NCBI GenBank assembly: GCA_024641305.1 | Contig: JAHEDI010000021.1 | Span: 1-60,505 of the forward strand | Source of the DNA: a bacterium | GTDB lineage: Bacteria > Actinomycetota > Acidimicrobiia > Spongiisociales > JAENVV01 | DNA: 60,505 nt | Direction: 5' to 3' | Shown here: one piece after another, positions 17,742-58,343 of the stretch | Numbering within the stretch: position 1 is the first letter of the stretch | How the letters are laid out: each line of letters starts with the position of its first letter | Notes under the pieces: model-generated | Told to the model about the DNA's origin: nothing | The model's input: the letters and a program-made list of their open reading frames with translations, nothing else | Databases searched by the model: none | Program-made: the position numbers and the translations under genes

Positions 17742-17836
17742 GGAGGCGACTGGACGCCTGGTGGGTCCCACGGTCTTCAAAACCGATGGGGGATCGAAAG
17801 GTCCCCGGCGGGTTCGATTCCCGTCCGCCTCCGCCA
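17742..17836 (+). tRNA. selC: tRNA-Sec (anticodon TCA)
   Basis: A 95-base tRNA with CCA encoded at 17834-17836. The acceptor GGAGGCG (17742-17748) pairs with CGCCTCC (17826-17832), and the discriminator is G. The D-arm has GGAC/GTCC around a CCTGGTGG-type loop. The anticodon stem CGGT/ACCG encloses the loop CTTCAAA, so the anticodon is TCA (17777-17779), complementary to UGA. A long variable arm GGGGATC-GAAA-GGTCCCC and the T-arm CGGG-TTCGATT-CCCG follow. The extra-long variable arm and UCA anticodon define tRNA-Sec rather than a suppressor. An eighth acceptor pair, normal in bacteria, is an A-C mismatch here. It would deliver selenocysteine via SelA and SelB, which are not in this window. 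Confidence 0.95.
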
Positions 17837-56868: not shown

Positions 56869-57402
56869 CTAGGGGATCGCCGCCATCACCTCGTCGAGAT
56901 CAGCATGATCGCCGGCGTGGTCCTCGAAGTCGGCATATAACAGTTCGTCGCCCGGTCCGATTACCAGGGTGGCACCCAGCTGGAATGGTCGGCGACCGCT
57001 CTTGTGTTGGCGATGGCCGGCCGCCAGGCTGCGCGCCCCCGCCGCCAGGGCGGACGGTTTGGCGATGGAAGCCAGTCCGAGCCGTCCGGTTCCGACGAGT
57101 TCGGCAGCCAACCCATCTTCGTCGAGGAGGACGTCGAAAGGCACCCGCTCATCTTCAATGAACGCCTGGGCATAGCGCTTGCCACCGGTTCCAATGGCGA
57201 CCACGGTCGCCCCTGTCGCTTTGATCTCTTCGTATCTGTCGCGGACCTGACCGGCCCGCTCTCGGCAGGTCAGTCAGCCAAAGTGCCTGAGGAACAGGAC
57301 AATGGCCGGCGTTTCCGCCCATCGGTCGCCGAGGCGATGCTCGCCACCCTCAGGGTCGATCAACACGTGATCAGCTAGCTCTCCGACGTCAAAGGATCTC
57401 AT
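56869..57402 (-). CDS. SelL-related redox selenoprotein (UxxC), thioredoxin fold
   Basis: ATG 57402 overlaps the stop of the upstream lipoprotein gene (ATGA). Reading UGA at 57274-57276 as selenocysteine gives 177 residues. The motif FLRHFGULTCRE has Sec43 where related AhpC/TSA_2 (PRXL2/SelL-related) proteins have Cys in FLRHFGC..CR. Downstream sequence (GATVVAIGTGGKRYAQAF, FDVLLDEDGLAAELVGTG, TLVIGPGDELLY) continues in the same frame and shows the peroxiredoxin-like fold, so the UGA is not a real stop. It is probably a thiol/selenol redox enzyme in the cytoplasm. A gene finder would call only the last 111 residues or nothing. Confidence 0.88.
57247..57273 (-). promoter_or_regulatory. bSECIS-like stem in the redox selenoprotein gene
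   Basis: Right after the UGA, CTGACC and GGTCAG pair with each other. The interior can pair further (CC with GG) around GAGAGC. Position and G-containing apical loop fit a bacterial SECIS. It lies within the coding sequence. Confidence 0.65.
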
Positions 57403-58343
57403 GGTCCGAACGAGTCCATCGGCGTCACGTTATCTTCGGCAGGCAAGTCGATGATGACGTTCCCGTCGTAATCGAACAGGTCATATTGCATCGACAAAAC
57501 TCCCGCCGCGCTGACATCCTCATATGAGATCGCATATCGCGAGATCCAGTTGTCAGCGGTTATCCAAACGTCCATCGGGAGCTGCTCGATCCCTGAAGCT
57601 CGCAGCTCCTCCACCGTAACGCCACCTCCGAGGTCGCCAAGCAGTTCAATGTCGAACAGGATTCGATAATGGGTGGCCTCTTCCCCGCGAATCGTCTCCG
57701 TGCCCACCACCGACAACTCGCCGCCGGCATCGAGGTACGAGGTTAGGGCGGCCACCGGGCTGGTGTTTTCAACCCCGGCCAGCCCCGCCGTATTGATCGC
57801 ATCGTCGCTTGGCAGCTGAACCCAGTCAGTGGTGACGCCCATGATCGCAAAGATCGGGAACTTCATATAGGCAGTATCCCCGTCAAAAATGAACCGCACA
57901 TCGGACAGATCTCCGAAGGCGGAAAGGTCGATGCCTTCAGTTGCGGCCGCACCTTCAAATGCCTCGCTCATGTCCATCTTCATCTCAAGGCGATCGGGGT
58001 TGAACGCTCCTTCCATATAGATCGTGAAAGCTTGGGGCAATTCTGGGGTAGCTGCCAGCATCAAACTCGCCTCAAAGCGTCCTGAAGTCGCTGCGGCGGA
58101 CTGTACAGCCGCTTCGCGGAAGGCGGCCAGATCAGTGGATGAGGCCGGCGTTCCCTCGGCGGCCGTGGTAGTCGGAGATGCCACGGTCGTTGGTGTCTCG
58201 ACCATGGTCGTCGTGGTTTCTGCCACCGTTGCTTCGGTGACAACCGGCGCTGTGGTGGCCGCTGGATCGTCTACGACGTCCGTGGCACCACCCCCGCAGG
58301 CGGCGAGTACGAGCATAAGTGCGGTGATACGGATCAGTTTCAC
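57399..58343 (-). CDS. LppX/LprG-like lipoprotein
   Basis: This 314-residue lipoprotein has a lipobox (LVLAAC), a Thr-rich linker of about 50 residues, and a C-terminal half-barrel domain resembling the LppX/LprAFG family: SGRFEASLMLAATPE, IYMEGAFNPDRLEMKMDM, DTAYMKFPIFAIM and THYRILFDIELL. Family members bind or shuttle lipids at the membrane. The gene overlaps the selenoprotein gene, so the two are co-translated. Confidence 0.72.
   Translation of the reverse strand: MKLIRITALMLVLAACGGGATDVVDDPAATTAPVVTEATVAETTTTMVETPTTVASPTTTAAEGTPASSTDLAAFREAAVQSAAATSGRFEASLMLAATPELPQAFTIYMEGAFNPDRLEMKMDMSEAFEGAAATEGIDLSAFGDLSDVRFIFDGDTAYMKFPIFAIMGVTTDWVQLPSDDAINTAGLAGVENTSPVAALTSYLDAGGELSVVGTETIRGEEATHYRILFDIELLGDLGGGVTVEELRASGIEQLPMDVWITADNWISRYAISYEDVSAAGVLSMQYDLFDYDGNVIIDLPAEDNVTPMDSFGP

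Follow-up and report, generated by a model that had tools for sequence, protein, structure and literature searches.

Published lists of bacterial selenoproteins include peroxiredoxin-like thiol:disulfide oxidoreductases (PF00578) with UxxC or UxxU motifs and an AhpC/TSA type (cd02970) with a UxxS motif (PMC13188914, PMC9312934). Among the better described relatives, SelL has two Sec residues, and SelU occurs in Sec forms in some animals, the human prostamide/prostaglandin F synthase being grouped with SelU (PMC3473315). A further family, NF040769 (SelL_rel_redox in NCBIfam), goes without mention in the review text of PMC13188914, which does provide a model of the bacterial SECIS in which the apical loop lies 16-37 nt from the UGA (PMC13188914). 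No paper on the gene described here came up in a search of the open-access literature covering SelL-related and Acidimicrobiia selenoproteins.

This gene lies in a stretch of 60,505 nt from a member of the Acidimicrobiia (contig JAHEDI010000021.1), referred to here as the window, and we hold with high confidence that it is a functional selenoprotein gene, in which Sec is inserted at residue 43 via SelB and a hairpin downstream of the UGA (Table 1). Actual insertion at this residue is predicted from sequence. The gene is a single frame running from ATG to TAG and interrupted solely by the TGA at codon 43, which sits in the context PAIVLFLRHFG-*-LTCRERAGQVRDRY (LFLRHFG-U-LTC, the UGA being followed by LTCRERAGQ); the second redox position is a Cys encoded by TGC, and the gene contains one UGA only. 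When a residue is placed at the TGA, the translation matches the Pfam families PF13911 (AhpC-TSA_2; 46.5 bits, above the gathering threshold of 27) and PF00578 (AhpC-TSA; 44.5 bits, gathering threshold 26), while NF040769 matches residues 12-175 with 88 bits, under its curated cutoff of 120 and thus outside formal membership. Since the longest ordinary frame at the locus, of 111 residues, begins at a GTG downstream of the redox motif, standard gene calling would lose the active site. Stop and start overlap as ATGA between the upstream lipoprotein gene, which ends in TGA, and the selenoprotein gene, which begins with ATG; three relatives of the same genus show this arrangement too, and the two genes may therefore be translationally coupled in this genus.

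Table 1. Features of the selenoprotein locus, the Sec machinery and related genes (positions in the window unless another contig or locus is named)
Feature	Position	Strand	Remarks
selC, tRNA-Sec	17742-17836	plus	anticodon UCA; ARAGORN; Rfam RF01852, 76.3 bits
selD, selenophosphate synthetase	42740-41697	minus	itself Sec-encoded; TIGR00476, 393.6 bits
In-frame UGA of selD	42701-42699	minus	active site GAG-U-ACK
SCO4651-family lipoprotein gene	57399-58343	minus	upstream of selenoprotein gene
Selenoprotein gene	57402-56869	minus	177 residues, Sec predicted at 43; putative thioredoxin-fold UxxC redox protein
In-frame UGA (predicted Sec codon)	57276-57274	minus	codon 43; TGA in every orthologue
Proposed bacterial SECIS hairpin	57259-57241	minus	GCGGGCC-GGUCA-GGUCCGC; 7-bp stem, loop of 5 nt, UGA-to-loop distance 21 nt
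Paralogous TGA group, L074	4072-4566	minus	
Paralogous TGA group, L072	3143-3640	plus	
Paralogous TGA group, L073	4850-5338	plus	
Tandem UGA-containing homologues, G162 contig C130	56119-56637; 56697-57209	minus	selenoprotein gene duplication
Cys-type relative L002, G000 contig C88	64265-64783	plus	WRHFGCSCG; no in-frame stop
selA match, G054 contig C24	10358-11668	minus	one in-frame TGA

The conservation of the UGA is the first line of evidence. The orthologues from three further members of the genus, 84-96% identical, all contain the TGA, and comparison of the window's copy with the 84% orthologue gives a dN of 0.11 and a dS of 1.4 before the UGA and a dN of 0.09 and a dS of 2.2 after it, the dS values being near saturation; among the genus orthologues selection is thus purifying on both sides of the codon. 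Across 138 genomes of the order we extracted 26 copies including that of the window, and the other 25, which are 63-96% identical to it and come from six families, each contain exactly one TGA, located wherever extracted at the position of codon 43. A fragment at a contig edge (L057) and a copy on a second contig in one genome (G075) likewise have exactly one TGA, and no orthologue from the 138 genomes carries a sense codon at this site. One genus member with selA and an estimated completeness of 90% (G003) yielded no match to the gene, which may reflect either a true absence or an assembly gap. A catalytic Cys codon, TGC or TGT, is a single substitution away from TGA, and the gene could on that ground be a decaying pseudogene; the occurrence of the same TGA in all orthologues of six families, with purifying selection on either side, leaves this explanation a practically negligible probability, and we reject it. 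The internal UGA is no product of chance, being shared by all orthologues found in the order and flanked on both sides by sequence in which dN is much lower than dS.

The second line of evidence is the decoding machinery. The window itself encodes tRNA-Sec and a Sec-type SelD, as an initial sequence-only reading had noted and as the ARAGORN, Rfam and TIGR00476 matches confirm, and selA (425 bits) and selB lie adjacent on contig C77 of the same genome, both exceeding their curated cutoffs, with selB scoring 311 bits for its main stretch and 353 when the C-terminal part is included. The genome thereby holds selA, selB, selC and selD, the set expected of a bacterium that makes selenoproteins, and the absence of selA and selB, which that reading had named as grounds for abandoning Sec insertion, does not apply. 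The selD gene has a strong 7-bp hairpin with a GUU loop 3' of its UGA, and an ordinary call of this gene would begin downstream, at TTG 42674, and miss the active site. In the order as a whole selA scores above its cutoff in 110 of the 138 genomes; the selA match in G054 contains one in-frame TGA, possibly through an assembly error or damage to the gene.

UGA is reassigned in other bacteria, and the codon might be read through or assigned to an ordinary amino acid such as Trp or Gly. UGA also serves here as an ordinary stop, ending nine of the 18 window genes sampled, and for this reason the code has not been reassigned as a whole; in addition, Cys is the sole residue that takes the place of UGA at this site in relatives, and the Sec machinery in the genome is complete. 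We consider insertion of an ordinary amino acid very improbable and, on stop usage and conservation, reject it in favour of Sec.

The exchange with Cys becomes apparent among more distant homologues. Most homologues in Acidobacteriota, which are 38-40% identical to the window protein, and in other Actinomycetota have TGA, and a tree of 60 sequences comprises 55 Sec and five Cys forms and requires two changes. Within this set the tree points to Sec as the more ancient state, though the profile used to collect the homologues was itself derived from Sec forms and applied with a cutoff of 1e-15. Both types occur within a single genus, L082 having TGC and L083 TGA at the site. The in-frame UGA therefore aligns with Cys or Sec in homologues, as is required of a bacterial selenoprotein; the sequence-only reading had named a sense codon for any third residue in close relatives, together with signs of frame decay, as counter-evidence, and the only other residue is Cys. 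Some UGA homologues pass the NF040769 cutoff (122.9 and 127.8 bits), and Sec forms are consequently no peculiarity of the window's clade, a subgroup that scores under that cutoff.

Several related genes were observed alongside these orthologues. A second, paralogous group in the order, at about 25-30% identity, has a motif that reads RYFG-U-xxC or RYYG-U-xxC, with an in-frame TGA. In three genomes the two genes are no more than about 4 kb apart, and one member of the group scores 84.9 bits against NF040769. Another genome carries two UGA-containing homologues in tandem. The window's own genome encodes a Cys-type relative (L002), also found in a second genome (L018 in G004); it is a separate paralogue whose motif position reads CxC.

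The sequence-only reading had also pointed to a stem-loop after the UGA. A hairpin is indeed present, but the question is which of two competing stems would act in decoding. Synonymous positions immediately past the UGA are frozen among the orthologues: codons +1 to +15 exceed the identity expected from codon usage by 0.24, compared with 0.02-0.04 elsewhere. Codons +7 to +9 after the UGA, which are invariant, are located in the 7-bp hairpin with the GGUCA loop. In this hairpin 95.6% of cells are paired, compared with 14-43% for slid versions, and one pair shows a double, compensated change, in two sequences; its spacing of 21 nt falls within the published limits for the bacterial SECIS, although a competing fold exists. 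For the window sequence taken alone the minimum-energy fold is not the proposed SECIS but a CUGACC/GGUCAG stem directly after the UGA, with a z of -1.35 for the whole stretch, and Sec could be inserted under the direction of that stem or of a composite of both. Such a signal concerns the decoding element only and is otherwise compatible with Sec insertion at residue 43. Across the orthologues 92.3% of the cells of the CUGACC/GGUCAG stem are paired, yet this stem has no double changes, its pair 9-25 is broken in eight of 26 sequences, and its apical loop starts about 10 nt past the UGA, outside the published range of 16-37 nt (PMC13188914), whereas the GGUCA-loop hairpin fits the published model and has a compensated pair. 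We regard a role for the minimum-energy stem, alone or in a composite, as unlikely; it ranks second to the 7-bp hairpin and is probably not the decoding element. Pair counting within the window's clade is suggestive in favouring the 7-bp hairpin and not decisive, the two stems being not fully separable.

How unusual such a hairpin is depends on the background. By our criterion a hairpin as stable as the proposed SECIS occurs at 0.5% of ordinary coding positions (in this GC-rich coding DNA, hairpins reach -13 kcal/mol at 0.5% of positions and -9.9 at 3.5%), and synonymous recoding attains this stability in 2-3% of draws; this null was computed for six loci, the other loci being scored without one. 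Because single hairpins of such strength are not rare in GC-rich coding DNA, the case for the SECIS rests on conservation.

Stronger evidence of a decoding hairpin than the pair counts within the clade comes from sequence comparison of homologues outside it. The 24 UGA homologues beyond the window's clade share a hairpin 25 nt past the UGA whose AGUU loop is invariant; five of its seven pairs show double changes, a count matched by two of 500 shuffles, and its covariation score is matched by none of 500, the shuffles being made without correction for relatedness. The Cys homologues have lost this hairpin: in the five of them the corresponding columns pair in 57% of cells, which does not exceed the shuffled level, and the AGUU loop is absent. 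In L016, L055 and L056, which form a third group within the order, the loop has 3 nt, GUC or GGC, and lies 17 nt past the UGA. We lean, by a little, towards a reading in which the decoding hairpin was replaced within one selenoprotein family while the UGA stayed, the alternatives being AGUU at 25 nt, GGUCA at 21 nt and GUC or GGC at 17 nt, and in which, with the same slight preference, the AGUU form is used by most Actinomycetota and Acidobacteriota homologues. Since the clade adjoining that of the window (L080, L081) retains the AGUU form, the switch in the window's clade would be derived. If the hairpin assignments hold, replacement occurred at least twice with retention of the UGA.

With regard to function, a confident structure model in which Sec was replaced by Cys (mean pLDDT 88.9, from an alignment of 18 rows) places residue 43 directly before a helix spanning residues 44-55, the usual position of the active site in the thioredoxin fold. 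The best match among solved structures is the human prostamide/prostaglandin F synthase PRXL2B (PDB 9us9, 9usa), both by profile (5.2e-16) and by fold search (1.6e-11, TM 0.75), followed by ResA and Bcp/PrxQ proteins, so that on the model the nearest solved structure is a member of the SelU family and not AhpC. The FGCxxC of PRXL2B aligns with FG-U-xxC in the window protein. This match is a similarity of fold and motif and not proof of orthology; PRXL2B is eukaryotic and only about 20% identical, and this bacterium would not be expected to offer a prostaglandin substrate. The alignment with NF040769 covers almost the entire window protein and brings the redox motif into register, and the clade of the window protein constitutes a divergent subgroup. 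With SelL it shares a peroxiredoxin-like thioredoxin fold and a Sec-based redox motif, but SelL has UxxU and the window protein a single Sec in UxxC. The published peroxiredoxin-like and AhpC/TSA selenoproteins belong to the same fold superfamily and have Sec at the first redox position, the AhpC/TSA_2-type entry differing in its UxxS motif (PMC13188914). Of the label SelL-related/AhpC-TSA_2 given in the sequence-only reading, the second part stands on the Pfam match, while the first is loose in view of the subthreshold NF040769 score, the single Sec and the best structural match being to the branch of PRXL2B and SelU. Comparison of 21 loci revealed no conserved gene neighbourhood pointing to a substrate, the recurrent elements being only the gene itself, its antisense shadow frames and unrelated ABC-transporter ATPases; the genomic context accordingly gives no function.

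Taken with its fold, the motif makes the protein most likely a thiol/selenol oxidoreductase of the UxxC type. In the mechanism that we propose, SelB carrying Sec-tRNA(Sec) would bind the hairpin just 3' of the UGA, and Sec would occupy residue 43, so that the first active-site helix would open with a U-L-T-C redox couple. The enzyme would then run through a Sec43-Cys46 selenenylsulfide cycle, presumably with thioredoxin or a similar donor as reductant and a peroxide, a disulfide or a similar compound as substrate. The Sec insertion initially surmised is supported by the full machinery, the conserved UGA, the exchange of Sec and Cys and the hairpin linked to the UGA.

The locus thus represents a well-supported new selenoprotein gene encoding a protein of a kind already known. 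It belongs to a little-studied order of Acidimicrobiia in which Sec machinery is widespread, and as a bacterial relative of PRXL2B with Sec in the active site its product could help to explain the ancestral role of this structural branch. Sec homologues and their matched Cys counterparts, which have lost the hairpin, together constitute a natural experiment on the requirements of bacterial SelB.
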